Source: Mageeibacillus sp. UBA3708 (GTDB lineage Bacteria > Bacillota > Clostridia > Saccharofermentanales > Saccharofermentanaceae). From it: a stretch of 22,790 bases of DNA. A program made the translations under genes and the position numbers. Under the pieces are notes generated by a model, which saw only the letters and a program-made list of their open reading frames with translations, had not been told where the DNA came from and did not search any database. Shown one piece after another: positions 1 to 17,620 of the stretch (position 1 is its first letter; the number at the start of each line of letters is the position of its first letter). The DNA lies in NCBI GenBank assembly GCA_002371375.1, contig DFIB01000114.1:1-22790 (forward strand). Reading direction: 5' to 3'.

Positions 1-142
1 CACAAAGTTACTGCGTGCGCAGCAAGCATGCTCCGGTAAGGCCGGTTTCGTTCACAAAGTTACTGCGTATGCAGCAAACATGTTCCGGTAAAGCAGGTTC
101 CATTCACAAAGTTACTGCGTACGTAGCAAGCCTGTTCCGGTA
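1..142. repeat. 52-bp direct tandem repeat, about 2.7 copies
   Basis: Units start at 1, 53 and 105, each with CACAAAGTTACTGCGT. Units 1 and 2 are both 52 bp and differ at 8 positions by eye. The third unit departs from the others after its TTCCGGTA. Each unit has a short dyad (CTGC-GTGC-GCAG in unit 1) and a CCGG. The array may continue to the left of the window. Its function is unknown. The spacing is too regular for chance, but no cas-like gene or spacer variety suggests CRISPR. Confidence 0.85.
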
Positions 143-318
143 TTATTATTTCGCGCAGATCCATCCAAAACAACAACCCGATGAAAGAATTTTAAAACTT
201 TGAACCATTCTTGATCTCACCTGTGTCCTATGGACATAAAAGCTATACAGGCGGTAAGAATTGCTCAGCCTGCAAAGCAGCACTATAATCTATGAGACAG
301 AGATTGGGGGAGGCAGTT
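143..318. other. Intergenic leader of the first sigma gene
   Basis: No gene is seen here. The stretch holds the ECF-type promoter candidate at 201-230 and the ribosome binding site GGGGGAGG at about 306-313, which fixes the start of the first sigma gene at 319. Confidence 0.6.
201..230 (+). promoter_or_regulatory. ECF-type promoter candidate of sigma paralogue 1
   Basis: TGAACC (201-206) and TGTCCTA (224-230) are separated by 17 nt. This resembles the ECF pattern of an AAC-type -35 and a GTC-type -10, and it is shared with the leaders of the two downstream paralogues. An alternative sigma-A reading is TGGACA (231-236), 18 nt, TAAGAA (255-260). Neither is proven, but the AACC/GTC pair is the better conserved of the two. 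Confidence 0.6.
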
Positions 319-2412
319 ATGCAGTACGATCCGGCAAAGACAGTTGAACTTATTAAGAAGTTCCAGGGCGGTGACAAAGAGGCGTTTAACGGGATATACG
401 AGGACACATACAGACTTGTATATAATGCGTGTTACGGAGTTCTCGGTAATGAGGACGATGCGCAGGATATTACGCAGGATACTTTCATACAGATATATAA
501 GAAGCTTGATACATTGCAGGATCCTTCGGCTTATGCCAAGTGGATGAAGCTTACCGCAACCAGGCTCGCGATCAATCACGTTACGCGTTCAGACAAGTTC
601 GAGACTGTTGAGGACGATACTGTTCTCGATGTATACAGCAATGACTGGAGCGAGTTCGACTCGCTGCCCGATTCGTTCATCGAGGAAGAGGAACAGAGGC
701 AGATCCTCGATGACATCCTCCGCAAGTCTCTGAGTGAAGTGCAGTATCAGACACTGTTCATGCACTTCTTTGATGAGATGAACATAGAGCAGATCGCCGA
801 TGCGATGAACTGTCCCTCCGGAACGGTCAAGACGAGACTGATGCATGCCAAGGCTAAGATAAGGAAGCCGCTCGAAAAGTATTTCGATCCCGGCAAGGCA
901 GTATATGCTGCTGTTCCGTTCCTCACGAGATTCTTTACTGCAAATGCCGTAAAGACCGGCATCCCGCCGATCGCAGTCCTCGGCATCCCCGGGGTCACCG
1001 GAACGGCAGGTTTGGCGGGCGCCGAAGCGGGCGTCAAGGGCGGATTCCTGTCGACAGTGGCAGGCAAGGTTATTGCGGGAGTTGCGGCCCTTGCGGTCAT
1101 CGGTGCGGCGGTGACGGTTGCAGTCGTTGTGAATAAGAAGGAAGAACCAAGGCAGAGTCCGGTTGTGACGGCTGAGACAAATGACAGTTCCGGCACTCAA
1201 TCTTCGGATATTGCAAATAATACAAGTAATATTGGTTCTCAGATCAAAATGGGTTATTATGCTGATTCCAACCTGGAGTGGATAGTCTTGGATGAGAATG
1301 ACAGCGAAGTGCTTTTGCTGTCCAAATATGCCATTGAACAGAAACCATATAATGATGAATTTGCGGATGTAACATGGGAAGAGTGTTCTTTGAGGCATTG
1401 GCTTAATGATGAATTCTATTCGACAGCATTCAACGACAGTGAGAAGAATTGTATTAAGATGACTACTGTCATAAATGGAGATAATCCTTTCAACGGTACT
1501 GAAGGAGGAAATGATACAGAAGACCGTGTATTCCTTTTGAGTATTGAAGAAGCTAACAGATATTTCGATTCAGACGAATCACGCATGGCGAAAGCAACGG
1601 AGCATGCAAAGACGAATGGAGTCGTGGTCTCAGTGGGTACCAGTGCCTGGTGGCTCAGGTCACCCGGTTGCGCAAGAAATATTGCAGCTGCTGTTTACTC
1701 GGGAGGAAACATGGAGAAGCGGGGCAGTGATGTTGCCATTAAGACACTGGGCGTCCGTCCGGCAATGTGGGTAAGCAAAGAATGTTTATCTGATGCCGGG
1801 AACAGATCTGCGCAGCCTTCCGCGGATGTTCCTTCAGATGTTTTTTCAGATGTCAAAACAGGTTCGATCGTTACATTCGGTAATTATGCTGGTGAAGATA
1901 TAGAATGGAAAGTGATAGATGAGAATGATGACAGTGTGCTCCTGCTGTCGCAGTATGTTCTTGATTTTAAGGCATATAACGATACCGATGCTAAAGTAAC
2001 ATGGGAGACATGCACACTGCGCAAATGGCTTAATGAGGACTTTATTAATACTTCATTCACTCCTGAAGAGATGGGCTCAATACAGCTCACTCATCTTGTA
2101 AATCCGGACAATCCTAACAGAGGAATATCAGGCGGAAATGACACTGATGACCGTGTGTTCATACTGAGTCTGGATGAGGTGTATAAATATTTCGGTGCGG
2201 AAGCTGACCGCCTCGCTAAGCCGACGGAACAAGCTCTCAGCGGGAAATCATCAGACGTGCTGTATAAGGGACATTGTTTCTGGTTAGTCAGGACTCCCGG
2301 ACAGAACAAAAACACTGTCAGCAGTATCAATTCGGAAGGTACACTTACTGACGGATGGGTTGTCTATAATGACAATACAGGTGTCCGCCCCGCTATGTGG
2401 GTAAGCAAGTAA
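319..2412 (+). CDS. Membrane-tethered ECF-like sigma factor with two DUF6273-like domains (paralogue 1)
   Basis: A 697-residue fusion. Sigma region 2 lies at about residues 20-65 (FNGIYEDTYRLVYNACYG, then DDAQDITQDTFIQIYKKL). Sigma region 4 lies at about 138-190, with the helix-turn-helix IEQIADAMNCPSGTVKTRL. A linker containing PFLTRFFTANA leads to one hydrophobic helix at about 251-271. A Ser/Thr-rich spacer and two repeats follow, at about 309-486 and 516-697. Each repeat has IEW.V.DEND, a W..C.LR.WLN core, GGNDT.DRVF.LS and a terminal GVRPAMWV. This matches DUF6273 from memory of the family. The start at 319 is chosen because GGGGGAGG lies just upstream; an in-frame ATG at 292 has no such site. 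Inferred topology is sigma inside and DUF6273 outside, so the protein could sense an envelope signal and control transcription without a separate anti-sigma factor. Neither the ligand nor any proteolytic release is visible. Confidence 0.88.
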   Translation: MQYDPAKTVELIKKFQGGDKEAFNGIYEDTYRLVYNACYGVLGNEDDAQDITQDTFIQIYKKLDTLQDPSAYAKWMKLTATRLAINHVTRSDKFETVEDDTVLDVYSNDWSEFDSLPDSFIEEEEQRQILDDILRKSLSEVQYQTLFMHFFDEMNIEQIADAMNCPSGTVKTRLMHAKAKIRKPLEKYFDPGKAVYAAVPFLTRFFTANAVKTGIPPIAVLGIPGVTGTAGLAGAEAGVKGGFLSTVAGKVIAGVAALAVIGAAVTVAVVVNKKEEPRQSPVVTAETNDSSGTQSSDIANNTSNIGSQIKMGYYADSNLEWIVLDENDSEVLLLSKYAIEQKPYNDEFADVTWEECSLRHWLNDEFYSTAFNDSEKNCIKMTTVINGDNPFNGTEGGNDTEDRVFLLSIEEANRYFDSDESRMAKATEHAKTNGVVVSVGTSAWWLRSPGCARNIAAAVYSGGNMEKRGSDVAIKTLGVRPAMWVSKECLSDAGNRSAQPSADVPSDVFSDVKTGSIVTFGNYAGEDIEWKVIDENDDSVLLLSQYVLDFKAYNDTDAKVTWETCTLRKWLNEDFINTSFTPEEMGSIQLTHLVNPDNPNRGISGGNDTDDRVFILSLDEVYKYFGAEADRLAKPTEQALSGKSSDVLYKGHCFWLVRTPGQNKNTVSSINSEGTLTDGWVVYNDNTGVRPAMWVSK

Positions 2413-2592
2413 AAATCCAAATAAAATCCTCCAAGAAATGAACCTTTCATCTATATCACTTGTCATATGGACGTAAACCGGTGAGTACGGTTATAATTTA
2501 ACAGTCAAGAAAGGTTAGAGTGAAGTTATGGATTATGATGCGCAGAGAATTGTTGATTCGATCAATAAGTTTCAAGCAGGTTCAGTGGAAGC
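2380..2592. repeat. Direct repeat copy A (3' end of paralogue 1 to 5' end of paralogue 2)
   Basis: This segment matches 4835-5047 without gaps over 213 bp, with about 16 differences counted by eye. It runs from the GGTGTCCGCC encoding the terminal GVRP motif, through the stop codon, promoter and leader, to codon 22 of the next gene. It shows that the cluster grew by tandem duplication. Confidence 0.9.
2439..2467 (+). promoter_or_regulatory. ECF-type promoter candidate of sigma paralogue 2
   Basis: TGAACC (2439-2444), 16 nt, TGTCATA (2461-2467). The elements match those at 201-230, where the surrounding leader has diverged, which argues for selection on them. A sigma-A alternative overlaps: TGGACG (2468-2473), 18 nt, TATAAT (2492-2497). 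Confidence 0.62.
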
Positions 2593-4867
2593 GTTCAACG
2601 ACATATACGAGGGTACATATAGGCTCGTATATTCGACATGTTACGGAATCATAAAGGATGAGGAAGACTCTCGAGATGTTACGCAGGATGCGTTCGTATA
2701 TATGTATGAGAAGCTGGATACACTTAACAATCCGTCCGCGTACGCGAAATGGATGAAACTGATAGCATCCGGCAGGGCACTGAACTTTGTGAAGCGCAAG
2801 GGCTACACCTATAACGTTGAAGATGATGTTGAGATGGATATGGCGCTTGCTGACTGGGAACAGTTCGATTCAATTCCGGAATCGTTTATAGAGGATGAGG
2901 AGAAGAAGCAGATAATCAATAAAGTTCTCAAAGAATCTTTGAGTGAGGTGCAGTACCAGACGATCTTTATGTATTATTTCGGAGAAATGCCTCTTGCCTC
3001 TATCGCTGAGACGATGAATTGTCCGGAAGGTACGGTTAAGACAAGACTTATGCACGCCAAGGCGAGATTCAGAGAGTCGCTTGAGGGGTATCTCGACGAT
3101 AACAAGCTTGTGCTTGCGGCGACGCCTTTCATGACGAGATTCTTTAATGCGAATGCTCCCAAAGTCAGCATTCCCTCGATTGCAGGACTCGGCATCCCTG
3201 GACTTGTCGGAACTGCCGGTATGGCGGGTGCCGGAGCAGGTTCTTCGTCTATCGGTTCGGGATTATCTGCCGCAGCTGATGCAGGTCAATCGGCGGCAGC
3301 AAATACGGCTCAGGTTGCAGGTGCCAATATAGGGCAGATAGCAGCGGGTGAATCAAGTCCTGCAGCTGCTGCAGAGGTAGGCCAGAAGGCTCTCGGAAAT
3401 ATGGGGACAAAATCTTCGGCTAAGTCTGCTCAGGCTGTCCAACAGTCCCCATTAGCAGTCAATTCTCCGGTATCTGATTCCGGCGTAAGCGCAGCTGGCA
3501 ATACAGGCAAGATAGTAGGCGCGCGAGGAGGCTTTCTGTCAACGGTGGCAGGCAAGATAACAATAGGAGGGCTGGCGCTTCTGTGTATCGGGACGATAGC
3601 TGCCGTAGGCGTTATAATCGCCGGCAAGGACAAGACTGAAGAAAGCACTTCAGCAACGGAGACAACAGTGACATCAGAGACAGGAGTGACAGGTGGTTCT
3701 TCCTCCTCAACCGATGATACAGCAGCGTCAAGAGCAAATGATGTGGCTCTTCATTCTGAAGTCAAGTTCGGTAATTTCGGAGGAGAAGATATAGAGTGGG
3801 TAGTGATAGACAAGAATGATGACGGATATATGCTCCTGTCCAAAAAATCGTTGTACTCCATGGCATATGATAAAGATCATTCCAGAAAATGGGAATCAAG
3901 TGACCTTCGCAGGTGGCTCAATAATGATTTCTATGATCAGGCTTTCAGCATGGAAGAAAAAAGGTTCATAAAAGAGACTGTCAATGAGAATCCTCCGCTC
4001 GGCGATGTTCCCGGTGAGGATCCGACGAGTGACCGTGTCTTTATATTGAGATCTGAAGAGAGTTCCAAGATACCTTACGAATATGAGTATGCAAAGCCCA
4101 CACAGTATGCAATAGATCACGGCATATGGACCAGTTCACACGGCAATACCGCCTATTGGCTGAGACCTGCTTTCTATACAAGTTATGAGTCGGATATGCC
4201 GGACCTGAACGTTGGCGGTGATGATGAGAACGGGAACCCTATAACGGGGGATTTTATTGGCGTCCGCCCCGTCATCTGGCATACATATGAACCGACCGAG
4301 GTTCCGGCTGAGGTCACGGAGATCCCGGATACTGTTACTTTCGGCAGATATGGCGGTGAAGATATCGAGTGGACAGTGATAGACGAGAATGAGAACGGGA
4401 AGCTTCTGCTGTCAAATAAAGCAATCGACAGAAGAAATTATAACGACAAGTATGGTGGAGCTACCACATGGGAGAAATGCTCACTGCGCAAATGGCTCAA
4501 CAACGACTTCTACGATCAGGCTTTCAGTTCTGATGAGAAGGGAAAGATATTGTTAACTAAGGTTCAGAATCCTGATAATCAGGTTTACGGTACTGAAGGA
4601 GGCAAGGATACTGAAGATCATATTTTCCTTTTAAGCACGGATGAAGTAAAAAAGTATCTGGACTCTGACGAATCCCGCAAACTCGCTCCCACAGACTATG
4701 CCCGTGCGCAGGGGTTAGACGGGTACTGCAACTGGTATTTAAGGACACCCGGACAATATCGCAACTGGGTCGCTTTAGTTCATGGGGACGGCAAAGTATC
4801 TGATGGCGGTTACTTTGCTTTTGACGGTAATTACGGTGTCCGCCCGGCAATGTGGGTAAGCAAGTAA
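2528..4867 (+). CDS. Membrane-tethered ECF-like sigma factor with two DUF6273-like domains (paralogue 2)
   Basis: A 779-residue paralogue of the preceding gene. Sigma region 2 is at about residues 24-64 (DSRDVTQDAFVYMYEKL). Region 4 is at about 138-192, with the helix-turn-helix LASIAETMNCPEGTVKTRL. The conserved PFMTRFFNANAPK block follows. Next comes a much longer Ala/Gln/Ser/Gly-rich linker (about 232-343) with imperfect repeats such as AAANTAQVAGANIGQIA. One hydrophobic helix sits at about 344-366, then a Ser/Thr spacer. DUF6273-like domains lie at about 411-588 and 601-779. The first of these is divergent: it has EDPTSDRVF in place of GGNDTDDRVF and ends GVRPVIW. The second is canonical and ends GVRPAMWV. 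The gene lies 115 nt after paralogue 1 and has its own ECF-type promoter, so the two may be expressed independently. The start is fixed by similarity to the next gene; the ribosome binding site (AAAGG, 13 nt upstream) is weak. The signal sensed is unknown. Confidence 0.88.
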   Translation: MDYDAQRIVDSINKFQAGSVEAFNDIYEGTYRLVYSTCYGIIKDEEDSRDVTQDAFVYMYEKLDTLNNPSAYAKWMKLIASGRALNFVKRKGYTYNVEDDVEMDMALADWEQFDSIPESFIEDEEKKQIINKVLKESLSEVQYQTIFMYYFGEMPLASIAETMNCPEGTVKTRLMHAKARFRESLEGYLDDNKLVLAATPFMTRFFNANAPKVSIPSIAGLGIPGLVGTAGMAGAGAGSSSIGSGLSAAADAGQSAAANTAQVAGANIGQIAAGESSPAAAAEVGQKALGNMGTKSSAKSAQAVQQSPLAVNSPVSDSGVSAAGNTGKIVGARGGFLSTVAGKITIGGLALLCIGTIAAVGVIIAGKDKTEESTSATETTVTSETGVTGGSSSSTDDTAASRANDVALHSEVKFGNFGGEDIEWVVIDKNDDGYMLLSKKSLYSMAYDKDHSRKWESSDLRRWLNNDFYDQAFSMEEKRFIKETVNENPPLGDVPGEDPTSDRVFILRSEESSKIPYEYEYAKPTQYAIDHGIWTSSHGNTAYWLRPAFYTSYESDMPDLNVGGDDENGNPITGDFIGVRPVIWHTYEPTEVPAEVTEIPDTVTFGRYGGEDIEWTVIDENENGKLLLSNKAIDRRNYNDKYGGATTWEKCSLRKWLNNDFYDQAFSSDEKGKILLTKVQNPDNQVYGTEGGKDTEDHIFLLSTDEVKKYLDSDESRKLAPTDYARAQGLDGYCNWYLRTPGQYRNWVALVHGDGKVSDGGYFAFDGNYGVRPAMWVSK

Positions 4868-5047
4868 AAATCCAAATAAAATTCTCCAAGAAATGAACCT
4901 TTCATCTATATCACTTGTCATATGGACGTAAACCGGTAAATACGGTCATAAATTATCAGACAAGAAAGGTTAGGATGAAGTTATGGATTATGATGCCCAG
5001 AGAAATGTTGATTCGATCAATAAGCTTCAGGAAGGTTCAGTGGAAGC
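4835..5047. repeat. Direct repeat copy B (3' end of paralogue 2 to 5' end of paralogue 3)
   Basis: Partner of 2380-2592 at a constant offset of 2455 bp with no gaps. Identity stops after GTGGAAGC at 5047, which is where the sigma-encoding part is missing from paralogue 3. Confidence 0.9.
4894..4922 (+). promoter_or_regulatory. ECF-type promoter candidate of the sigma-less paralogue
   Basis: TGAACC (4894-4899), 16 nt, TGTCATA (4916-4922), identical in these elements to the promoter of paralogue 2. The downstream sigma-A-like -10 found in paralogue 2 (TATAAT) is changed here to CATAAA, while the ECF-like elements are unchanged. That favours the ECF reading. Confidence 0.62.
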
Positions 5048-6536
5048 AGATACGGCTCAGGCCGCAGGTGCCAGTACAGGTAAAACGGTAGGCGCACGAG
5101 GAGGCTTTCTGTCAACGGTCACGGGCAAGGTGGTTGCAGCGATCGCAGCTGTTGCGGTCGTTGCAGCGGCAGTGACGGTGGCTGTAGTAGTGAACAAAAA
5201 GGATGAGCCTGCTGAGACGACAGTGGAGACGACGGTGGAATCGACGGAAACAGAAAGGACATATGAGGAGACTACAACAGAGACGACGGTCACGACTACG
5301 GCAACAACTGAGACCACCACATCATCGTTGCCCACAGCGGTTACACCGGTATCGTTTGACGTGGCCGTATATGGCAATTATGAGGGTAAACCTATCGAAT
5401 GGCTGGTATTAGACTCCAATGATTATGCCTATTTGCTATTGTCAAAAGACATAATCGATGTACAACGGTTCGACGACAATGGCACGAACTATGTTTGGGG
5501 CAGAGGTTCAATAAGGAACTGGCTTAATGTATTTGCCAATGCTGCTTTCACAAAGGAGCAAAGGACTAATGAAATATATTGTGAAATGTGCGTCACACCG
5601 GATGATCCTGTCAATGGAATGGGTGGTGACATCTATTCGGAAGAGACTGTTTTCTTGCTGAGTGTTGCAGATGTTAATAAGTATTTCCCTGATGAATCAT
5701 CTCGAATTGCAGGAGCGACATCTCATGCTATCGAGATGGATCGAGGTAGGCAGGGTGTCTACTTGTCATGGTGGCTCCGCGATACAAGCGAGAACGGTTA
5801 TCCAACCTATATCAACGGTGACGGCAGTATCTGCGGGACCGGCGGAGATGTGATGGATGCAGGATGCGGTGTCCGTCCCGCCATGTGGGTGGATAAGGAC
5901 GCGGTAAAGATTACTTCAGGTGGTGCGGATAAGCCTTCAACAGGTACCGTTACATACGGTGATCTGGTTCCGGATTCGAAGGGTATCGTCAAATTTGGTA
6001 CTTACTACAACAGAGATATCGAGTGGATGGTTCTTGATGAGACCGAGGACAGCATGCTCCTTATAACTAAAACCGCTATTGAAGCTAAGATGTATAATGA
6101 AGAACCTGATAAGGGTACGGTCTGGGAAGAATGTACTCTGAGACAGTGGCTTAACGGTGATTTCTTCAGCTCTGCCTTCAGTTCTTCCGAGCAGAACAGG
6201 ATCAACCTGACACATTTGGAGAATGCCGACAACCCGTCGAAAGGAACGGAAGCCGGCAACGATACAGATGACCATGTGTTCCTGCTGAGTGTGGACGAGG
6301 CAAAAAAATATTTCGATTCAGATAAAGCACGCAAGACAACGCTGGTGATCGACGGAAAGATGATGATATCCGTCAATTACGGAGCTTACTGTCAGTGGTA
6401 TCTGCGCACTCCCGGAAGCTTCAACGATATGGCAGCAATCGTTGACTACAATGGGGTTGTAAGTGAACGTGGAGTTGTTGCCTGGATAAACAATAACACC
6501 ATAGGTGTCCGCCCCGCCATCTGGGTGAAGAAGTAA
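4983..6536 (+). CDS. Sigma-less membrane-anchored DUF6273-like protein (paralogue 3)
   Basis: A 517-residue protein that keeps the first 22 residues of paralogue 2 (MDYDAQRNVDSINK and on) and then jumps straight to the juxtamembrane linker (ADTAQAAGASTGK, then GARGGFLSTV). Both sigma regions are missing. One hydrophobic helix lies at about residues 50-70, followed by a Thr/Glu-rich spacer (about 75-117). Two DUF6273-like domains follow at about 123-305 and 334-517, both ending GVRPA-W. The reading frame is open and the C-terminal domains are intact, so it does not look like a decaying pseudogene. Inferred roles are a decoy or competitor for the signal or partner of the two tethered sigma factors, or simply an effector of their regulon. 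It cannot itself direct RNA polymerase. Confidence 0.85.
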   Translation: MDYDAQRNVDSINKLQEGSVEADTAQAAGASTGKTVGARGGFLSTVTGKVVAAIAAVAVVAAAVTVAVVVNKKDEPAETTVETTVESTETERTYEETTTETTVTTTATTETTTSSLPTAVTPVSFDVAVYGNYEGKPIEWLVLDSNDYAYLLLSKDIIDVQRFDDNGTNYVWGRGSIRNWLNVFANAAFTKEQRTNEIYCEMCVTPDDPVNGMGGDIYSEETVFLLSVADVNKYFPDESSRIAGATSHAIEMDRGRQGVYLSWWLRDTSENGYPTYINGDGSICGTGGDVMDAGCGVRPAMWVDKDAVKITSGGADKPSTGTVTYGDLVPDSKGIVKFGTYYNRDIEWMVLDETEDSMLLITKTAIEAKMYNEEPDKGTVWEECTLRQWLNGDFFSSAFSSSEQNRINLTHLENADNPSKGTEAGNDTDDHVFLLSVDEAKKYFDSDKARKTTLVIDGKMMISVNYGAYCQWYLRTPGSFNDMAAIVDYNGVVSERGVVAWINNNTIGVRPAIWVKK

Positions 6537-6706
6537 ATGATAAGATTGCCAATGCACGGGTGATCCTATTGACCGGGGTGCATTGAACGACAGATGATAA
6601 CACCGAACAATTTGACCTGTTACACTGAAATCCGTTCAGTGCTGCAGGCCATTTTGTTCAGTGTTGTTTATAAACGTGTCAACTTAGGCAGTCTGCCGCA
6701 TATTCG

Positions 6707-6736
6707 ACAGGTGACCGGGTTGACCCGGTATCCTGT
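6707..6736. repeat. Strong inverted repeat around ACCGGGTTGACCCGGT
   Basis: The perfect core ACCGGGT-TG-ACCCGGT (6714-6729) is flanked by ACAGG and CCTGT, which extend the stem after two mismatches. It is followed by only three T on the plus strand, so it is a poor terminator by itself. It could be an operator, an RNA stabiliser or part of a complex terminator. Confidence 0.6.
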
Positions 6737-6758
6737 TTCCGAAGGAATTTAAAGATTT

Positions 6759-6836
6759 TTCCGAAGAAATTTCGGAAAGATTTCTGATTCTTGCGGAATC
6801 CGAAGGATTCCATTTTTCCCCGATATTTCTTCGGAA
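6759..6836. repeat. 17-nt inverted repeat enclosing a hairpin
   Basis: TTCCGAAGAAATTTCGG (6759-6775) and CCGATATTTCTTCGGAA (6820-6836) are reverse complements except at one position. The left arm can also fold on itself (CCGAA/TTCGG), so alternative structures are possible. The terminator-like hairpin 6795-6811 lies inside. Confidence 0.7.
6795..6817 (+). terminator. Rho-independent terminator, rightward
   Basis: GGAATCC-GAA-GGATTCC (7-bp perfect stem, GAA loop) followed by ATTTTT. It faces rightward and would end transcripts of the DUF6273 cluster about 260 nt after the last stop codon, before they run antisense into the minus-strand gene. Confidence 0.7.
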
Positions 6837-6892
6837 GGATTGCCGTTTTTCTTCGAAAACGGTGAAGGCAGACTGAGTGAGCAGGAGATAAC

Positions 6893-9766
6893 TCAGTAGA
6901 TCTTATAGACTCTCGTTCCGCTCTGGTTGAAAGCAGCTACCTGCGTAAGATTCTCGGCAAAGAAATCCCAGTTGAATTCCGTGCCTGATTCATCGGCGCT
7001 GAAGGTGAATTCAGGGTCGGTGATCAGATATCTGATATTGCGTTCTTTGCAGTATCTTACAAACTCGTCAATGTCTCCGCCGCAGCCCGAGATAAGCCAT
7101 GAATAGATCTTTCCTCGGGTGTCCGTATCGTGTCCTGCCGACCATGCATAGTACGGCCAGCCGTAGTAGGATGCGCGTCCTGCCAGATAGAATTCATGCA
7201 GGCTCCACATGGGTGTTAGGAATACGTCGGATGTGTCGGTATTCTCCATAACCCACTGTGCCAGCGGAGAATCAACCGTAATGGTGTATTTGCCCTTGTT
7301 GAGATTGTAGTACGTTGCCCACTCGGAAATGCCCGTAGCCGTGAGGGGAACGAGGAGCGTGAATCCGAGAATTACGCCGATCAGCTGCAGAACTATGAAT
7401 GTGAACAGCGAGACGCCTTTGCTCTTTGATCCGCTGACTGTGGCAGCCGCGATCTCAGGGACACTGCCTTCCGAAACATCATCTGAGTCTTCAGCCTCTT
7501 CTGTATCTTCAGACTCCTCAGATACCTCAGACTCATCAGACTCATCATCACTATCTTCATCAATCATATACACATCTTCAAGGTCGGCATCTTCCAGAGG
7601 TACTTCCTCGATGATCCCGTCAGCAGGTACTTCTTCAGATGCTGTATCCGGTTCCTCCACAGGTTCCGACACAACGATGTCAGTCGACTTGGTAAGCGGG
7701 ACAAGTTCATGACCGGGAGTTGATTCTTCTGATTCCCCGTCTGACTCACCGGATTCGTCAGATACTTCAGACACTTCATCAACTTCTTCACCGAGCACTT
7801 CGATCACACTCTCTTCCACGATGTCCTGTGCGTCGGATGTTCCTGAATCTCCGGTCTCTTCAGTTTCTCCGGCAACCTCAGTCGCGTCAGATTTCTCTAT
7901 GATTCTGATCGCCTCGGCGATCTCATCTTCTTCTGATGTCTCAGGGTTCTCATCAGATCCCTCTTCATCCTCATCATCCGGCAGCTCTATCTCCTCAGGG
8001 AGGTCGAGAGCCTCGTCATCGATGTCGCTGTCGTCGGCGAGATTCTTCACCTTTTCGCCGGGCTCAACGATGTCAGAAACAGGTACGGCTGCGGGGATAA
8101 TATCAGCAGCGGAAGTCTCCTTCTTGTCGCGTATGCTGAACGGTATCGAGAACAGATTGGCCAGGAATATCGCCACGAAAGCATCGACGAGTATGAGTGT
8201 TATCTGGATAAATTTGTGGTTGGCGAGCATCTCCATCGTTACCTTGAAGTTGAAGCCGAAGATAAGAGGAAGGAGGAAGCAGATGAAGAGAAGAGTCCTG
8301 TATACAGGCTTCTTTCTGACGATGTCCGATACCAGGAATATGACTGCCAGAAGTATTCCGAGCACGAGTGTCAGGCCCGTGATCGTGAGCAGGTATATGG
8401 CGATGTCCGTAACGGAAGGATCGCTCAGGATGAAGCCGGGCGCATACTTGAATCCGACGACATTGGAGGCGCCTCCTGAGAATGTATAAGTCTGAATGAA
8501 TGATGATGCCACGGCACACACTGCGACTGCCAGGTGAAGCAGTCTGCACTCGCTGAAGATTGCCATGCCGAACAGCACGAGCAGCATGGAGATGAGAGCC
8601 GAACCGTGATAGTAAGGCATCACTATGACCGTTATGCATGTCAGTAATGTGATCATGCCGGGCTTCAGCTCATCGTTCCTTTTGGGAATCCAGCTTGTCC
8701 TGCTGAACAGGAATGCTTTGACGGCACCGCCGAATGAGCCTGCACTCATCATGCTAGTGCACATCCTTCTGACAAACGGGATGAACAGGATTATGACCAT
8801 CAGTATAAGGCCGACGCCGAGCATCAGATGGCGCTGATTTGGGTAGACATTGATCGCCCAGATCCCCCAGTCATCGTAATCGGTGACCTTATACCACTCG
8901 GAGAAGCCGAAGATGTACTGTATCGATTCCGACAGGGATTTATCCTTCATAAGGACGCTGAGATGATCGAAAACATTCCACGCACTCCTGAAAAATACGA
9001 GGACGGGCGCGAAAAGGAATGCGCCTTTCTTGCCTGACAGAAGTACTGCGAGAAGCCCGAGCAGCGTCAGTGCCGATACCATCGTCAGTATGCTGATGGA
9101 GTTGAGTGCCACGTCGATCTGCAGGCCGCCGTAGTTGAGCATGCCGGCAAAGAAGTAGAACAGGAAATGGTACTGGATGCCGTCGCCGGAGAAATGCATA
9201 TACTGTGTCGGGAAGTTGAATCCGTTGGAGAATGACGAGATCATCGCCGTGTGAGGTGCCAGATCCGAGAATGTCGACAGCCCTGCCATGAGCTCGCCGT
9301 CAGAGATTCTGTACGTATACCTCATCAGGAACGTTGCACACGCCGTTATCAGCGCGATGATCAGTCCGTAGAACAGCGTGTCGCGCAGCCTGTACTGATA
9401 AGGCGGAATCTCTGCAAAATCACTGTTCTCGAGCCTCTTGAGCCTTCTCCTGTTGATGATTATCAGGTTGGACAAAGACAGCCATATCAGCACCGCGAAA
9501 GTAATTATCATACCGATCCTCTTGCACACTGAGTGGTCGCCCATGAAGTAGGACAGCCCGAGGATCGTGTAATAGTTGATGAATCCGGTAGTTACGATGC
9601 CGACTAATATGCCGGCCGGAACAGTGAACAATGTATTTGGAATGGTAGATACTGCTTCTTTGGAGGGTGCGCACGCCACATATAGACGCCTTACGTCAGG
9701 CACTGCAAAATTTACCAGAGTTAAGCCGAACACGGCAGAAATGATCAAGTAAACGATTGCAAGCAT
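6893..9766 (-). CDS. Polytopic GT-C-like membrane protein with acidic low-complexity insertion
   Basis: About 957 residues. Many hydrophobic helices fill roughly the first 540 residues. An early extracytoplasmic segment carries FSDLAPHTAMISSFSNG and IQYHFLFYFFAGMLNYGGLQ, a pattern I associate with uncharacterised GT-C-like membrane proteins, in which acidic residues of the first loop are catalytic. From about residue 545 to 778 the protein becomes a Glu/Asp/Ser-rich stretch with almost no hydrophobic residues. One more helix follows (FTFIVLQLIGVILGFTLLVPL), then a soluble C-terminal domain (DVFLTPMWSLHEFYLAGR, GWPYYAWSAGHDTDTRG, NIRYLIT). That tail resembles the exported C-terminal domain of GT39-like proteins. 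The start is set at the ATG complementary to 9764-9766, with AAAGGTG 8 nt upstream; a GTG at 9775 is the longer alternative. A glycosyltransferase role using a lipid-linked sugar is inference. Confidence 0.75.
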   Translation of the reverse strand: MLAIVYLIISAVFGLTLVNFAVPDVRRLYVACAPSKEAVSTIPNTLFTVPAGILVGIVTTGFINYYTILGLSYFMGDHSVCKRIGMIITFAVLIWLSLSNLIIINRRRLKRLENSDFAEIPPYQYRLRDTLFYGLIIALITACATFLMRYTYRISDGELMAGLSTFSDLAPHTAMISSFSNGFNFPTQYMHFSGDGIQYHFLFYFFAGMLNYGGLQIDVALNSISILTMVSALTLLGLLAVLLSGKKGAFLFAPVLVFFRSAWNVFDHLSVLMKDKSLSESIQYIFGFSEWYKVTDYDDWGIWAINVYPNQRHLMLGVGLILMVIILFIPFVRRMCTSMMSAGSFGGAVKAFLFSRTSWIPKRNDELKPGMITLLTCITVIVMPYYHGSALISMLLVLFGMAIFSECRLLHLAVAVCAVASSFIQTYTFSGGASNVVGFKYAPGFILSDPSVTDIAIYLLTITGLTLVLGILLAVIFLVSDIVRKKPVYRTLLFICFLLPLIFGFNFKVTMEMLANHKFIQITLILVDAFVAIFLANLFSIPFSIRDKKETSAADIIPAAVPVSDIVEPGEKVKNLADDSDIDDEALDLPEEIELPDDEDEEGSDENPETSEEDEIAEAIRIIEKSDATEVAGETEETGDSGTSDAQDIVEESVIEVLGEEVDEVSEVSDESGESDGESEESTPGHELVPLTKSTDIVVSEPVEEPDTASEEVPADGIIEEVPLEDADLEDVYMIDEDSDDESDESEVSEESEDTEEAEDSDDVSEGSVPEIAAATVSGSKSKGVSLFTFIVLQLIGVILGFTLLVPLTATGISEWATYYNLNKGKYTITVDSPLAQWVMENTDTSDVFLTPMWSLHEFYLAGRASYYGWPYYAWSAGHDTDTRGKIYSWLISGCGGDIDEFVRYCKERNIRYLITDPEFTFSADESGTEFNWDFFAENLTQVAAFNQSGTRVYKIY

Positions 9767-9789
9767 AATTATCACCTTTATTTTTATTA

Positions 9790-11623: not shown

Positions 11624-13729
11624 ATGAATAACAGGCTCATTCGTTTTTTTACGGTGTTTATCACTGCTGTTTTGCTTTGCAGTGTTTTGAGATATGCGGT
11701 GCTCGCTGCACCTGCGGCGAAGGTCGACAACGTCAATACGTGGGACTCCGGCGGACAGATAACGCTGAAGCTGTCCGGCTGCGCCGGGTACGGGTCGATC
11801 ACTGTAACCGTTGAGTTCTCCGGCAAGATCAAGTCCGCATCGGGATGGGGATTTGATTCTTATAAGATCGACGGCAATAAGGTAATCGCCACTTGCTCGT
11901 CATCAGGTCCCAACAACTGGGGATTTGACGGCAATGTGGGTATACAGGTGGACGGATCGGGAGTCAAAAGCGCCAAATTCATCTCCATCACCGGCGACGG
12001 ACAGGGCGGCACATCGGGCGGGGGAAGCAATGTGACGCCTGCCCCTGTCTCCAATGCAGCACCTCCGGACGGGCCTTCCAGAGCGCATGTCGACTCGGTT
12101 CAGGGCGATGACTGGCTCACGACAGACGGCAATAAGATAGTCGACATGAACGGCAACGAAGTGTGGATGACAGGGTGCAACTGGTTCGGCTATAACACGG
12201 GCACCAACCTCTTTGACGGGGTGTGGAACTGCAATCTCAAGGAGAGCCTTGAGGGGATAGCAAACAGGGGATTTAACATTCTCCGTCTCCCCATATCGGC
12301 AGAACTCCTGCTTCAGTGGAAGAGCGGCAATTACCCCAACGCCAACTATAATCAGGCGTATAACTCCGAGCTGAACGGGATGAACAGCCTTCAGATCTTC
12401 GACTATGTTCTGGACCTCTGTGAAGAGTACGGAATGAAGGTTATGATCGATATACACTCCGCAAATACTGACGCGGCAGGTCACAATCATCCTGTCTGGT
12501 ATACAGATAAGATAAGCGCGGATCAGTTCAAGGAGGCACTCGTATGGATCGCTGACCGTTACAAGGATGATGACACGATCGTGGCATACGACCTCAAGAA
12601 CGAGCCTCACGGGAAGGCAAATGAGCAGAAGAGAGCGATATGGAATGATTCGGAAGATCCCGATAACTGGAAGAAAGTGGCGGAGGATACGGCCAATGCG
12701 ATACTCGATAAGAATCCTAATGCGCTCATTGTAATAGAAGGCATCCAGATATATCCCACTGACATTAAGAGTAATAACTTCACGTCGGCTGACGAGAAGG
12801 ACTACTACAACACATGGTGGGGTGCAAACCTCATGGGCGTGCGCGATTATCCTGTCGATCTGGGGTCATCTGAGCGCAATAAGCAGGTGGTCTATTCTGT
12901 CCATGATTATGGTCCTCTCGTTTTTCAGCAGCCCTGGTTCGAGGGCGGATTCTCGTTTGAATCACTGTACAAGGATGCGTGGCACGACTACTGGCTCTAT
13001 ATTGTCGAGGAGAATATCGCGCCCGTGTTCATTGGCGAGTGGGGAGGATTCATGCAGGGGGACAACCTGACATGGATGACTTACTTCAGACAGCTCATCT
13101 CCGAGAAGAGACTGAACTTCACCTTCTGGTGCTACAACGCCAATTCAGGCGATACCGGAGGACTGGTCAAGGATGATTTCAAGACGTGGGACGAGGAGAA
13201 ATACGCTTTCGTTAAGGAGGTGCTGTGGATCGACGATAACGGTAAGTTCGTAGGTCTCGACCATAAGGTTCCACTCGGAAATAACGGCATAGCATTGTCA
13301 GACTGGGCAGGATTTAGGAACGATCCGGCTCCGGCAGGACAGACTTCTGCTGCAGCGCCTTCTGCAAGCGGGGAGTCCGTTGAACCCTCGGCGTCACAGC
13401 CCGCACCTTATACGGCTATGCCGGCACCTGTGGATCCGTCCGACGCTTCGTCCGGGAGCAATACCGTACTTATCGTAATATTGGCTGCCATAGGTACTGC
13501 TGCTGCGGTCGTTATTGTAGTTATGATAGTCAGGATAAGGTCTCTGGGGACTTCCGGCAAGACAGAAGATAATGCCGGTCCGGACGCGCCGGTCGTTGTG
13601 AACGGGTATCTCCAGAAGTCTAATACATACAACCCGAGACCCGTATATTCCAATACTGCCGAAGCCAGGAAAGCGCAGGAGAGGATAAGGCAGCAGAAGG
13701 AGCATGAGGGCGGAGAAGGGGATAACTGA
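11624..13729 (+). CDS. Membrane-anchored GH5 endoglucanase with N-terminal CBM-like domain
   Basis: 701 residues. An N-terminal signal peptide (ITAVLLCSVLRYAVLA, cut near residue 29) is followed by a beta-rich domain at about 33-130. Its Trp/Gly pattern (ITVTVEFSGKIKSASGWG, NNWGFDG) suggests a carbohydrate-binding module. The GH5 catalytic domain covers about 160-565. The acid/base is Glu327 in DLKNEPHG and the nucleophile is Glu472 in PVFIGEWGG; MIDIHS is also typical. A Pro/Ala/Ser linker leads to a transmembrane helix at about 613-638 (VLIVILAAIGTAAAVVIVVM), and then a charged cytoplasmic tail of about 60 residues. The tail contains NPRPVYSNTAEARKAQE, which resembles the tail repeats of the next gene. 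The enzyme probably hydrolyses beta-1,4-glucans at the cell surface. A transmembrane anchor instead of a sortase or dockerin signal is notable. Confidence 0.93.
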   Translation: MNNRLIRFFTVFITAVLLCSVLRYAVLAAPAAKVDNVNTWDSGGQITLKLSGCAGYGSITVTVEFSGKIKSASGWGFDSYKIDGNKVIATCSSSGPNNWGFDGNVGIQVDGSGVKSAKFISITGDGQGGTSGGGSNVTPAPVSNAAPPDGPSRAHVDSVQGDDWLTTDGNKIVDMNGNEVWMTGCNWFGYNTGTNLFDGVWNCNLKESLEGIANRGFNILRLPISAELLLQWKSGNYPNANYNQAYNSELNGMNSLQIFDYVLDLCEEYGMKVMIDIHSANTDAAGHNHPVWYTDKISADQFKEALVWIADRYKDDDTIVAYDLKNEPHGKANEQKRAIWNDSEDPDNWKKVAEDTANAILDKNPNALIVIEGIQIYPTDIKSNNFTSADEKDYYNTWWGANLMGVRDYPVDLGSSERNKQVVYSVHDYGPLVFQQPWFEGGFSFESLYKDAWHDYWLYIVEENIAPVFIGEWGGFMQGDNLTWMTYFRQLISEKRLNFTFWCYNANSGDTGGLVKDDFKTWDEEKYAFVKEVLWIDDNGKFVGLDHKVPLGNNGIALSDWAGFRNDPAPAGQTSAAAPSASGESVEPSASQPAPYTAMPAPVDPSDASSGSNTVLIVILAAIGTAAAVVIVVMIVRIRSLGTSGKTEDNAGPDAPVVVNGYLQKSNTYNPRPVYSNTAEARKAQERIRQQKEHEGGEGDN

Positions 13730-13860: not shown

Positions 13861-16155
13861 AATTCGTTAGTTGTAAGATCCCGGTTTGTTAGAGTTGCAA
13901 CAGTGCTGATGTGCATGTTCCTGATGGCATCTGCGCTTTTGTTCCTGGCACCTGGTGAAGTAAGTGCAGCGGGAAGTGTTGATGTTGTCGGATGGGGCAC
14001 ATGGAATAAAGATTTCGGCGGATTTTCACTTGATGTTCAAGGCTACTCTGCACCACAGAATGTTGTGGTAACGCTCACGTTTGATAAAGAAGTTAACGTT
14101 TCATCGTCTCTTGTCGCAAACGGTGTTGCAAAGATCAGCGGAAGCGGAGGACGCAAGGTAACTATAACAATATATGGATACAACGGTAAGAAGGGCGATC
14201 CTGACGGGGGGTATTATTTCGAAGTGTCCGGAACCAACATTGAAGGAATGGATAAGCCCAAGTGTTCTGCCAAGGCGTCAGGCGCAACTTATACTCCCAC
14301 CAAGAAGCCTACTGCAACTAACACGCCTACACCTAAACCCACCAAGAAGCCTACTAATACGAGTACACCTACACCCAAGCCGACCAAGAAGCCGACTAAT
14401 ACACCTAAGCCTACACGTGAGGCAACACCCACACCTGAGCCGACTGATACGCCGGCACCTACAGCTACACCTAAACCGACATCAACGCCGGCTCCTACTC
14501 CTACTACTGATCCCAATCGTCTTCCGATCGAGCCGGAGCCGTCTGCTTCTGCCGTTGTTCCGGGTACGGTAGACCCCACAGACCCCACAGATCCGTCTAA
14601 CCCCATCGGCGGCACGACGGATAAGGACGGAAACACTCCGACACCTACCAAGACGCCGGAAGCACCCGTAGAACTTAAGAAAGACAGCAATTTCAACTGG
14701 CTTCCATACCTGTTGATATTTATAGTTGTCGCTCTGCTGTTGCTCAGATACGGATATCTGCGCAAGGGCAAGGGCTACTCCAACAAAGAAGCTTTCGCGC
14801 ATTTCATACCCGGCATGGGCGGATCAGGCAAAGCTCCGAAGACTGCTCCGGTTCAGGCATCAAGACCCGTAGCTTCTTCACAGACAGGAGCCGGTCTTGC
14901 CGCTTCGATGAAAGAGATCAATGCAATGAGAATGGCAGAACAGAAGGAAGCGCAGGCTGCCGGCGCAGGAGCTGCCGCAGCAGCAAAAGCTCCTCAGAGA
15001 GCACCCGTAAAGCGCCCTGCAAAGTATTCATCCAATCCAAATGTTGCAAGACAGGCAAGAGAGGCGGAAGAGGCACCCAAGCGTCCTGCTGCTGCGGCCG
15101 TACCGCCCAAGGCGGCTCCTGCCGGTGCACCTTCTGCATCATCTCCTGTTCCGGGACTTAAGGCTCCGATCAAGAGGCCTCCTCAATACTCAGTGAACCA
15201 TGCGGCACAGGCACCTGTTCAGGTACAGCAGAAGCCCGTAACTACTCATGTCGCACCTGTTGTTGCTGCAACTGCGGCAACCGTTGCAGGTACTCCCAAG
15301 GCGGCTCCTGCTGCACCGGCAAAGCCTGCAGCTCCGGTTCAGAACCCGGCATCACCTGCTACACAGCCGAAGGCACCCTCTGCCCCTGTAATGCCAGTTC
15401 CTGAACAAAGCGGTACGAAGCATTTCAAGCGTCCCTCGGAATACACTGTTGACCACGCGGCTATACCCGGTGTCGTCAAGATACCTGAGGTTAAAATAGC
15501 AAGTGATATCAAGCCTGTTCCTGCAGACAAGATAACAGCAAAGAACGAAGTTCATCCTCAAGCCGGTAAGGAACCGGCTCCCCGTAAGGTAGCACCAGCG
15601 CCTGCCAAGGCACCGGCACCGGCTCCTGCAGCCTCCGTCAATCCTGATGAAGCACAGGCAGATTCCAAGGGCCATGGCGTTAAGGGACTTGTCGGCAAAT
15701 TGCCTTTCGGCAAGAAGCATGAGTCGGTAAGTGAGCCTGTTGCATATCCCAAGACGGCCTCCACGAGCGGAACGACTAATTATGCGGCAGCCATGAAGGA
15801 GATTGCAGCGCAGAGAAGAGCCGAAGAAGCCGCTGCTGCACAGGCACAGGCGCAGACGCAGGTGAAGGTTCCCGCGGCACCTATGAATCAGAATCCTAAT
15901 CAGATTCCCGGACTGAGGGCCCCTATCAAGAGACCTCCGCAGTACTCCGTAAATCACGCTGCACAGCAGAATCCTGCAGCTGGATCACCTCAGTCCGCAG
16001 CTCCGACCCGTCCGGGATATAGGACTCCGGTATGGAACATACCGGGTGCTCAGGCGCCTTCGCAGAATCCGGCTCCGGACAAGCCGGCATCACCATCACC
16101 ATTCAAGCCCTCAGGCAATAATACTCAGCCCGGCAATGGTGCGGACAACAACTGA
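13858..16155 (+). CDS. Membrane-anchored surface protein with CBM-like domain and long repeat-bearing cytoplasmic tail
   Basis: 765 residues. A signal peptide (cut after VSA, residue 37) precedes a beta-rich domain at about 40-140. It resembles the N-terminal domain of the endoglucanase (GTWNKDFGGFSLDV, VVVTLTFDKEV). A Thr/Pro/Lys linker of TPTKKPT-type repeats spans about 143-275. One helix (LPYLLIFIVVALLLLRYGYL) is at about 281-300. The remaining 460 residues, inferred cytoplasmic, are Ala/Pro-rich. They carry four related motifs: PVKRPAKYSSN (near 382), APIKRPPQYSVNHAAQ (near 436 and 688) and HFKRPSEYTVDHAA (near 522). They also carry two short helical segments (AASMKEINAMRMAEQ near 348, YAAAMKEIAAQRRAEE near 642). 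There is no recognised enzymatic domain. It may bind polysaccharide outside and organise partners inside the cell; this is inference. Confidence 0.8.
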   Translation: MNSLVVRSRFVRVATVLMCMFLMASALLFLAPGEVSAAGSVDVVGWGTWNKDFGGFSLDVQGYSAPQNVVVTLTFDKEVNVSSSLVANGVAKISGSGGRKVTITIYGYNGKKGDPDGGYYFEVSGTNIEGMDKPKCSAKASGATYTPTKKPTATNTPTPKPTKKPTNTSTPTPKPTKKPTNTPKPTREATPTPEPTDTPAPTATPKPTSTPAPTPTTDPNRLPIEPEPSASAVVPGTVDPTDPTDPSNPIGGTTDKDGNTPTPTKTPEAPVELKKDSNFNWLPYLLIFIVVALLLLRYGYLRKGKGYSNKEAFAHFIPGMGGSGKAPKTAPVQASRPVASSQTGAGLAASMKEINAMRMAEQKEAQAAGAGAAAAAKAPQRAPVKRPAKYSSNPNVARQAREAEEAPKRPAAAAVPPKAAPAGAPSASSPVPGLKAPIKRPPQYSVNHAAQAPVQVQQKPVTTHVAPVVAATAATVAGTPKAAPAAPAKPAAPVQNPASPATQPKAPSAPVMPVPEQSGTKHFKRPSEYTVDHAAIPGVVKIPEVKIASDIKPVPADKITAKNEVHPQAGKEPAPRKVAPAPAKAPAPAPAASVNPDEAQADSKGHGVKGLVGKLPFGKKHESVSEPVAYPKTASTSGTTNYAAAMKEIAAQRRAEEAAAAQAQAQTQVKVPAAPMNQNPNQIPGLRAPIKRPPQYSVNHAAQQNPAAGSPQSAAPTRPGYRTPVWNIPGAQAPSQNPAPDKPASPSPFKPSGNNTQPGNGADNN

Positions 16156-17620
16156 CAGAAGGATCAATAAGATCGACATGATAACAGTATCAGCAGTCTT
16201 CCTGCTGGTACTGTTATTGAGTTTATATACGCCCCTCATCACGGATGACCTCCATTTCAAGCATATATGGAATGGCTTTGACGCTGATATAGGTAGCGAG
16301 GTGCGCATATCTTCAATAGGCAATCTGTTCACATCAGCAGGTAATTATTATCGCTACAGCGGCGGAAGAGTCGTCTGTCATTTCTTTGTCTTCGCCGTGA
16401 TATATGCCGGAAAGTGGGTGTTCGCGATAATCAACGCCTGCTTCTTTGTGCTGGCAGGCCTGCTTATAAGGCGCGGGATCGGATCCGGTCTGTTATCTGA
16501 GAACATGTTTTTGCTGCCGTTGATATATATGTCTATGTTTCTGCTCCTGCCATCATGGGGTGATTCCGTATTGTGGGTATCAGGAAGTGTAAATTACCTG
16601 TGGGCGGGGACTGTCATGCTGTGGGCAGTCAGTATGATCGATAGTTCCCGTAAGGGTGCCGGGAATTATATCGTGACATTTATTTCTGTCCTGTTGGCAT
16701 CCTCCGTCAACGAGGTATTCGGCGGAATGCTCATCATATTCATCGTAATCCGGCTGTTCTCAAGCAGGATAAAGGCTGCCGGTTATTATATCGCATCCCT
16801 GCTTTGCACACTGCCGGGAATGGGGCTGGTGATACTGTCTCCGGGTAATTCCAACAGGCAGGTCATGGTCGACGGGAACAGTGATATCGGCATTGCAAAG
16901 GCTATAAAGACATCATATGATTATCTCTCATGTTTTATCAGCTGGGGATCGGTTATATTGTTGCCGGTCCTGATCATGCTGTTCTATATGATCCTGCACA
17001 GAGAGAAGATAAAGAAGATATTTGCCGCGATGGCGCTGCCCATAGCCTGTTTTGCGGGAAGTGTGGCACTTGGACTGTCGGGGGTCGTAATACAGCGAGC
17101 TTTGTTCTCGGTAATCCTTCCGCTGATGATTCCCGCATGGTCATGTCTCATGGATTTTCTGTGCAGGGCAGAGGGAAGTGAGAAGTATAAATCAGTTTAT
17201 TTGGCACTTGCTTCACTGACTCTCCTGAACCTGATATCGCTCTCGTTTATGCAAGCTGCAGTTGCCGGATTGTGCCTCGTGATCATGGTCCTTGTCAGGT
17301 ATTTGATGAAAGTCGGATCAGGCAGGAAGTCAGGCAGGAAGCCCGGTTCGCCGGCAAGGCTAAGTCTGATCGTTATCGCACTGTCCGGCATTATCGTTAT
17401 ATTCAATACAGTCACTTTTTTTATCGATGTGCAGGACTATGATTCATATATTGCAGAGGTCGCCTCGGCTATGAAGAGGAATGACATGGTTACTGTTTAT
17501 TCTGCGTCATCTCAGAGGAATGCAGTAAGCCTTTTTTTCCCTGCTGAGGGTACCATCGTATCGGATTATTCCCTGAGCTGGATATTTCAGTATTATGTTG
17601 TGGAGGGAAATAAGATATGA
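16139..17620 (+). CDS. DUF6056-like polytopic membrane protein
   Basis: About 493 residues from ATG 16139, with around ten or more hydrophobic helices. Landmarks recalled from DUF6056 are the acidic pair after the first helix (LYTPLITDDLHF, Asp36-Asp37), YRYSGGRVVCHF and WVSGSVNYLW. The acidic loop residues and helix layout suggest a GT-C-type glycosyltransferase fold. The start is uncertain. ATG 16139 overlaps the preceding gene by 17 nt and gives a positively charged N-terminus. ATG 16178 would begin just before the first helix with AGAAGG 15 nt upstream. The open frame back to 16046 is not used here because it lies wholly within the upstream gene in another frame. The stop overlaps the next start as ATGA. 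Confidence 0.75.
   Translation: MRTTTDRRINKIDMITVSAVFLLVLLLSLYTPLITDDLHFKHIWNGFDADIGSEVRISSIGNLFTSAGNYYRYSGGRVVCHFFVFAVIYAGKWVFAIINACFFVLAGLLIRRGIGSGLLSENMFLLPLIYMSMFLLLPSWGDSVLWVSGSVNYLWAGTVMLWAVSMIDSSRKGAGNYIVTFISVLLASSVNEVFGGMLIIFIVIRLFSSRIKAAGYYIASLLCTLPGMGLVILSPGNSNRQVMVDGNSDIGIAKAIKTSYDYLSCFISWGSVILLPVLIMLFYMILHREKIKKIFAAMALPIACFAGSVALGLSGVVIQRALFSVILPLMIPAWSCLMDFLCRAEGSEKYKSVYLALASLTLLNLISLSFMQAAVAGLCLVIMVLVRYLMKVGSGRKSGRKPGSPARLSLIVIALSGIIVIFNTVTFFIDVQDYDSYIAEVASAMKRNDMVTVYSASSQRNAVSLFFPAEGTIVSDYSLSWIFQYYVVEGNKI

Follow-up and report, generated by a model that had tools for sequence, protein, structure and literature searches.

How could a sigma factor respond to the outside of the cell when it shares one polypeptide chain with a membrane helix and two DUF6273 domains? 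The question is raised by three tandem genes of Mageeibacillus sp. UBA3708, located in a stretch of 22,790 nucleotides (nt; the window) that begins at the first base of contig DFIB01000114.1 (C155). A preliminary description had proposed two adjacent genes for sigma factors of the extracytoplasmic function (ECF) type, each with sigma regions 2 and 4, a linker, one helix and two DUF6273-like domains, and a third gene keeping the helix and the DUF6273 pair. Pfam, NCBIfam and hydropathy analyses of genes 1 and 2, and Pfam and hydropathy analyses of gene 3, bear out this make-up (lengths in amino acids, aa):

319..2412, + strand: gene 1, 697 aa, sigma2, sigma4, linker, helix and two DUF6273 domains (frame also open from an ATG at 292, 706 aa)
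394..594, + strand: gene 1 sigma-70 region 2 (Pfam PF04542, residues 35-101 of the 706-aa frame)
727..861, + strand: gene 1 sigma-70 region 4 (Pfam PF08281, residues 146-190)
916..936, + strand: gene 1 post-sigma4 motif PFLTRFF, residues 209-215 (helix modelled at 210-219)
1069..1125, + strand: gene 1 transmembrane helix (hydropathy maximum 2.58)
1303..1776, + strand: gene 1 first DUF6273 (Pfam)
1927..2406, + strand: gene 1 second DUF6273 (Pfam)
2528..4867, + strand: gene 2, 779 aa, sigma2, sigma4, long linker, helix and two DUF6273 domains (Pfam, NCBIfam)
2606..2800, + strand: gene 2 sigma-70 region 2 (Pfam)
2933..3067, + strand: gene 2 sigma-70 region 4 (Pfam)
3563..3619, + strand: gene 2 transmembrane helix (hydropathy)
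3827..4279, + strand: gene 2 first DUF6273
4394..4861, + strand: gene 2 second DUF6273
4983..6536, + strand: gene 3, 517 aa, headless paralogue with linker, helix and two DUF6273 domains (Pfam)
5130..5186, + strand: gene 3 transmembrane helix (hydropathy maximum 2.82)
5430..5894, + strand: gene 3 first DUF6273
6048..6530, + strand: gene 3 second DUF6273

The profile matches are significant throughout. Gene 1 matches Sigma70_r2 at E 4e-11, Sigma70_r4_2 at 5.7e-9 and DUF6273, in two stretches, at 9.6e-62; the corresponding values for gene 2 are 3e-7, 6.8e-9 and 3.1e-48, and the two DUF6273 domains of gene 3 match at 5.3e-42. Scores for DUF6273 (PF19789) of 208, 164 and 144 bits in genes 1, 2 and 3 compare with a curated cut-off of 23.5, and genes 1 and 2 reach 79.5 and 83.1 bits with the NCBIfam sigma70-ECF superfamily model TIGR02937 (cut-off 42.9). 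Regions 2 and 4 lie close together with no other sigma region, as in ECF (group 4) sigma-70 factors. For gene 3, neither Pfam nor NCBIfam reported a sigma domain at any E value up to 0.1; it thus has no sigma head. Gene 1 most likely starts at the ATG at 319, behind GGGGGAGG (by eye); this is the start previously proposed, and its database counterpart P0001 begins at the same residue. The linker comprises about 70 residues in gene 1 and about 165 in gene 2. Taken as a whole, the locus is probably best explained by a one-chain receptor whose held head is freed on signal, which drives its own promoter and whose sensor is swapped between relatives.

Each full gene would encode such a receptor, with the ECF head in the cytoplasm, tethered near the membrane by the helix, and with two C-type-lectin-like DUF6273 domains outside, where they may bind a ligand, a glycan or envelope signal being the candidate put forward earlier. 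In all of genes 1-3 the hydropathy plot shows a strong hydrophobic segment ahead of the DUF6273 pair; the lectin-like domains thus follow the helix, and the arrangement would correspond to that of ECF52-type fusions if they lie outside and bind. The ECF head and the helix of the membrane-tied sigma factor put forward earlier are confirmed, whereas the orientation, with DUF6273 outside, is only probable: a helix or signal segment precedes the domain in 65 of 85 non-redundant proteins. In structure models DUF6273 adopts a predicted C-type-lectin-like fold that matches solved C-type lectin-like domains with VIA-align; a Foldseek search of the PDB alone returned a single match below E 0.001 (9qa6), and only VIA-align revealed the lectin fold. 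This fold has already been published for phage DUF6273 (PMC10743442, PMC11792537; both available in part). The available text describes tentaclins, phage receptor-binding DUF6273 proteins that are varied by diversity-generating retroelements in a C-terminal variable region. They share the Pfam domain and the lectin-like fold with the proteins studied here, which, unlike them, would be bacterial membrane receptors. The sole reverse transcriptase (RVT_1) match in this genome, a 410-codon frame (L017), lies on another contig (C224) that carries no DUF6273; on this evidence, from a search that covered reverse transcriptases but not template repeats, the idea of a retroelement target was dropped.

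It could also be argued that DUF6273 serves for adhesion or display and that the sigma head is a passenger that regulates its own promoter but plays no true part in sensing. Two other DUF6273 proteins of this genome, on C102 and C207, read as a lipoprotein and as a lipase anchored at its N-terminus (signals by eye), the domain also occurs in phage receptor-binding proteins, and the predicted targets described below are likewise surface proteins. However, DUF6273 is joined to three unrelated intracellular outputs (sigma, Hanks kinase and TIR), mostly via a helix, which points to sensing and makes a pure adhesin very improbable. Two side observations concern the same domain. Separate DUF6273 open reading frames (ORFs) near a fused ECF gene (G112:C147, G104:C15, G106:C63, G095:C66 and G082:C3; by eye) are possible soluble or surface partners. 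On contig C137, a TIR/TPR protein with a hydrophobic segment (L011:794-2797) lies directly upstream of the fused ECF gene; its C-terminal stretch resembles a worn DUF6273 (IEWIVI ... GVRPM; by eye) and gave no PF19789 match.

Judged by sequence, genes 1 and 2 belong to a large clostridial family of one-chain proteins composed of ECF head, helix and ectodomain. Nine sigma region 2 matches were found in this genome, six of them in open frames of 695-782 aa (genes 1 and 2 and one each on contigs C148, C113, C28 and C137); the C113, C28 and C137 proteins resemble the others from head through linker to helix but lack DUF6273. When a profile built from the six heads (A1) was searched at E 0.001 in 115 genomes of the taxonomic family, 114 of them gave a match, generic ECF factors included, and among the 150 matches listed 143 lie in frames of 440-1016 aa and 7 in frames of 254-439 aa. 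DUF6273 is present in 95 of the 115 genomes. Ectodomains were scanned in 34 proteins, namely the six from this genome and 28 of 29 relative loci (L032, cut at a contig end, was excluded); sigma regions were found in all 34, DUF6273 in 5, RHS repeats in 4 and a MORN variant in 1, any other matches being weak and single. Because most of the examined relatives bear other ectodomains, DUF6273 is not the defining partner it had been taken for. RsiV/DUF3298-like ectodomains were also considered and rejected, since Pfam gave none for the C113, C28, C137 and C148 proteins at E values up to 0.5. Named relatives are RUG14124 ('Ruminococcaceae bacterium') and Saccharofermentans metagenome-assembled genomes from horse faeces; a scan of genome contigs for relatives gave only 4 loci. 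In a partly different set of 34 (the 29 loci, genes 1 and 2, P0011, P0030 and P0038), every protein has the helix, L030 has a second strong hydrophobic segment, and none carries the zinc anti-sigma motif HxxxCxxC between sigma4 and helix.

ECF factors fused to membrane parts are already known as such, ECF48, ECF52, ECF53 and IutY among them (PMC8999054, available in part). In SCO4117 (ECF52) of Streptomyces coelicolor, an extracytoplasmic proline-rich region and a carbohydrate-binding domain are present and proteolysis has been proposed (PMC8999054); the proteins studied here likewise would join an ECF head through the membrane to an outer part. However, ECF52, like ECF48 and ECF53, is described there as actinobacterial with a zinc-finger domain and one or two helices, whereas the present family is clostridial, lacks HxxxCxxC, bears DUF6273 or other ectodomains and includes tandem genes with apparently exchanged sensors. 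IutY (ECF243) of Pseudomonas putida combines sigma factor and membrane-bound regulator in one chain that is freed by Prc and RseP (PMC8999054); it is part of cell-surface signalling for the siderophore aerobactin, whereas in the present family ligand binding would fall to the ectodomain of the chain itself. ECF262 (Ruminococcus albus SFB89493.1) and ECF288 (Blautia) are, like the present family, clostridial groups with regulatory extensions, a likeness by description only, and their mechanism is given under 'others' (Table 2, PMC8999054); the fused family may be ECF262. In cellulolytic clostridia, paralogous RsgI proteins sense different substrates and govern SigI-type sigma factors, and RseP cuts RsgI within its helix (PMC12203970, PMC6056542; both available in part). 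RsgI is a separate anti-sigma factor, whereas in genes 1 and 2 head and sensor share one chain.

By analogy, ligand binding, or ligand loss, would free the head to act, most likely by stepwise cleavage of the IutY kind; M50 protease genes are present. Alternatively, as in membrane regulators of the ToxR/CadC type, the head might act at the membrane without cleavage, the ligand clustering receptors or freeing sigma4 from the post-sigma4 motif and the polymerase being recruited in place. The missing zinc motif would suit this course, as would the PFLTRFF-like motif found after sigma4 in 20 of the 29 relative loci, which overlaps the modelled gene 1 helix and could be an on-board switch. Nevertheless, proteolysis is what releases IutY, the membrane ECF fusion that has been characterised (PMC8999054), and the linkers of genes 1 and 2 (about 70 and 165 residues) may be cleavable tethers, so that we regard action without cleavage as unlikely. 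A stand-alone copy of the post-sigma4 segment was also observed: small ORFs of roughly 33-60 aa with the sequence PFLTRFFxAxAEDLxIP lie just upstream of the fused ECF gene in L022, L025, L027, L029, L031, L032, L037, L039 and L044 (L029 and L032 being near-duplicates). Their frame overruns the ECF start in 7 of 9 cases, TGAACC lies 203-216 nt before that start in 6 of 9, and they are possible regulatory microproteins.

Once freed by cleavage, as we prefer, the head would steer RNA polymerase to promoters of the type TGAACC-N16..18-GTCNTA. The motif (TGAACC, 16-18 bases, GTCNTA) was found by reading upstream regions side by side, and a motif search placed it before all three genes:

201..230, + strand: ECF-type promoter of gene 1, TGAACC-N18-GTCCTA
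2439..2467, + strand: ECF-type promoter of gene 2, TGAACC-N17-GTCATA
4894..4922, + strand: ECF-type promoter of gene 3, identical to that of gene 2

Since such promoters precede the receptor genes, positive feedback would follow. Among 32 upstream regions (36 minus the near-duplicates L019, L028, L032 and gene 3), 7 contain the strict and 9 the loose motif, compared with shuffle means of 0.003 and 0.03. The genome holds 10 strict matches against 3 for the reversed control, and 8 of the 10 lie just upstream of genes; on C155 there is none beyond the promoters of genes 1-3. The candidate targets are:

genes 1, 2 and 3 and the C28 fusion (by upstream position)
C23: secreted CAP-domain protein
C102: lipoprotein followed by the DUF6273 lipoprotein, the motif lying within an upstream extension of that open frame
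C227: choline-binding-repeat LRR protein
C221: small ORF followed by a secreted choline-binding-like repeat protein (repeats by eye)

Outputs other than the receptors themselves would thus be a few secreted or lipid-anchored surface proteins in this genome. Two long secreted CAP-domain proteins were noted as well, one (L011:5510-9001) directly behind the C137 fused ECF gene and one (L052) behind an ECF-type promoter. A search allowing two mismatches was rejected as too noisy (223 matches, 141 in the control). In positions 1-7000 of the window, sigma-70 (TTGACA/TATAAT) promoter-like sites gave no signal (11, and 11.2 in shuffles); terminator-like sites numbered 9, against 4.8 in shuffles, and were not used.

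The tandem cluster described earlier is real, but its extent was probably underestimated. The evidence lies at the edge of the window:

1..142, + strand: 52-bp tandem repeat, 2.7 copies (Tandem Repeats Finder), also ending contig C148

Contig C148 (3,150 nt) carries another ECF-helix-DUF6273 gene and ends in the same 52-bp repeat, its last 23 nt being identical to positions 1-23 of the window. In addition, P0001, P0007 and P0011, the database counterparts of gene 1, gene 2 and the C148 gene, each list a longest contig of 51,118 nt, presumably one and the same. The end match, the shared repeat and the common contig, strong though indirect evidence, make it very probable that a fourth such gene stands just upstream of the window, and that the cluster is larger than three genes.

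Gene 3 appears to have arisen within this cluster, as indicated by a duplicated junction (self-blastn):

2380..2592, + strand: gene 1 end, spacer and gene 2 start, 92.5% identical to 4835-5047
4835..5047, + strand: gene 2 end, spacer and gene 3 start, 92.5% identical to 2380-2592

Because these 213-bp junctions are so alike, while other matches among genes 1-3 are at 64-84% identity or short, gene 3 probably originated by duplication with loss of the head. Carrying the same promoter but no head, it might serve as a decoy or as a store of sensor sequence. It might also be no more than a copy in decay, the remnant of a deletion within a duplicated gene 2; its first 22 residues are a near-copy of the gene 2 start, followed by an in-frame jump into the linker (by eye), and the junction copy spans the start and the region upstream. 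Yet the frame is fully open, the promoter motif is identical to that of gene 2, and an open relative of 518 aa exists at 96% identity (P0121, 4 members, 2.2-kb contig). We therefore give decay a real chance while leaning towards a retained gene.

The comparison of close relatives suggests that sensors have been exchanged under nearly unchanged sigma heads. Fourteen pairs, chosen by eye among the listed homologues, were plotted, and a single break was fitted to five. Gene 2 and P0004 are identical at 339 of 343 positions through residue 343 and at 183 of 432 from residue 344 on, the break falling at GGFLSTVAGK, immediately N-terminal to the helix. Gene 2 and P0008 display the reverse pattern (166/271, then 414/446; head 61%, ectodomain 93%). 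Gene 1 and P0003 break at the start of the second DUF6273 (520/528, then 76/169), and the C148 protein P0011 and P0005 at the end of the first (480/512, then 76/206). P0011 and P0012 are 92-100% identical to about residue 260, 32-82% in the middle and 98-100% from about residue 480. Recombination would thus swap the sensor and leave the head almost as it was, the breaks falling either at the helix or close to it, or else at a DUF6273 domain or inside one.

Further evidence comes from the DNA of this genome. Directly behind the C148 gene, a frame-broken stretch (L004:2660-2976) resembles the C-terminal sensor tail of P0005 and P0006; its main piece is 68% identical over 79 residues to the former and 71% over 85 to the latter, and a short piece 64% and 60%. 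The C148 protein itself is 92% identical to P0005 over its first 525 residues and only 37% in its own tail. Given this P0005-like head, the divergent tail and the leftover behind it, the most economical interpretation is insertion of a new tail, with the old one remaining as a remnant.

Mosaics of this kind could in principle be assembly chimeras or result from ectodomains that simply evolve fast. The swap partners come from metagenomes, paralogues share near-identical stretches (the 213-bp junction is an example), and chimeric assembly is possible above all for P0003 and P0005, whose contigs measure only 2.6 and 5.4 kb. However, P0004, P0008 and P0012 are on contigs of 36, 49 and 147 kb, fast evolution cannot yield the reverse case of gene 2 and P0008, and the broken tail behind the C148 gene stands in the DNA of this genome, where chimeric database proteins would not account for it. 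Neither artefact nor fast evolution is thus a probable source of the mosaics. Going beyond sensor exchange itself, the array may be a sensor-shuffling device, in which autoregulated heads persist and ectodomains pass from one head to another by recombination, near the pre-helix GFLST.AGK stretch as well as at the lectin domains or inside them, creating varied ligand-to-promoter wirings across the population; neighbouring and headless copies (gene 3, leftover tails) would be its store. We put this forward as a doubtful but attractive extension. Pilin and vls cassette systems follow a comparable logic, which would here be applied to transcription factors.

Several observations weigh against the one-chain receptor as a general explanation. 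Neither a cleavage site nor a dedicated protease for the fused receptors was identified. Helix flanks carry 3 (gene 1) and 2 (gene 2) basic residues on the DUF6273 side. No helix or signal segment precedes DUF6273 in 20 of the 85 proteins, which counts against a strictly outside position, and the helix is absent from 7 of 18 kinase-DUF6273 and 1 of 12 TIR-DUF6273 fusions in a hand-picked set, so that DUF6273 may be cytoplasmic in some other proteins. As for the promoters, 23 of the 32 upstream regions lack even the loose motif, and two of the ten strict matches in this genome look like chance, one (C31) inside a long recN-like frame (by eye) and one (C101) opposite a 530-codon frame. Across the genus, leaving this genome aside, the strict pattern barely exceeds its control (268 against 228 in 84 genomes; 278 and 231 over all 85), so that a regulon is suggested for this genome alone; specificity for the promoter may shift together with the head, or else the pattern could be too simple. 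The adjacency of C148 and the window depends on a 23-nt overlap within a repeat and on the 51,118-nt contig listings. Finally, besides the metagenomic origin of the swap partners, the pairs were hand-picked by eye, and gene 1/P0002 and gene 3/P0121 are alike throughout, with no exchange, other pairs being low or gradual in identity.

The literature searches, in a collection with few subscription papers, turned up no account of a sigma-DUF6273 fusion. As far as they show, a DUF6273 ectodomain on a sigma factor and the absence of a zinc anti-sigma motif from such a fusion are new, and so are an array with a headless member, the self-promoter and sensor exchange. If the explanation is correct, this lineage senses its surroundings by single-chain, membrane-tied sigma factors that replace separate sigma and anti-sigma partners. 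It would also constitute a natural rewiring experiment, with one output head joined to different lectin-like inputs: where the sensor is replaced under the same head, the same output could therefore be wired to new ligands. It would become testable how a sigma factor can be held and then released when no zinc anti-sigma domain is present, and whether recombination serves bacteria to diversify signal input; such modular receptors could serve as engineered sensing parts in gut bacteria.

The array is neighboured in the window by envelope genes:

6893-9775, - strand: large membrane protein with an acidic middle part
11624-13729, + strand: secreted GH5 cellulase with a C-terminal hydrophobic segment (by eye)
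16046-17620, + strand: DUF6056 membrane protein

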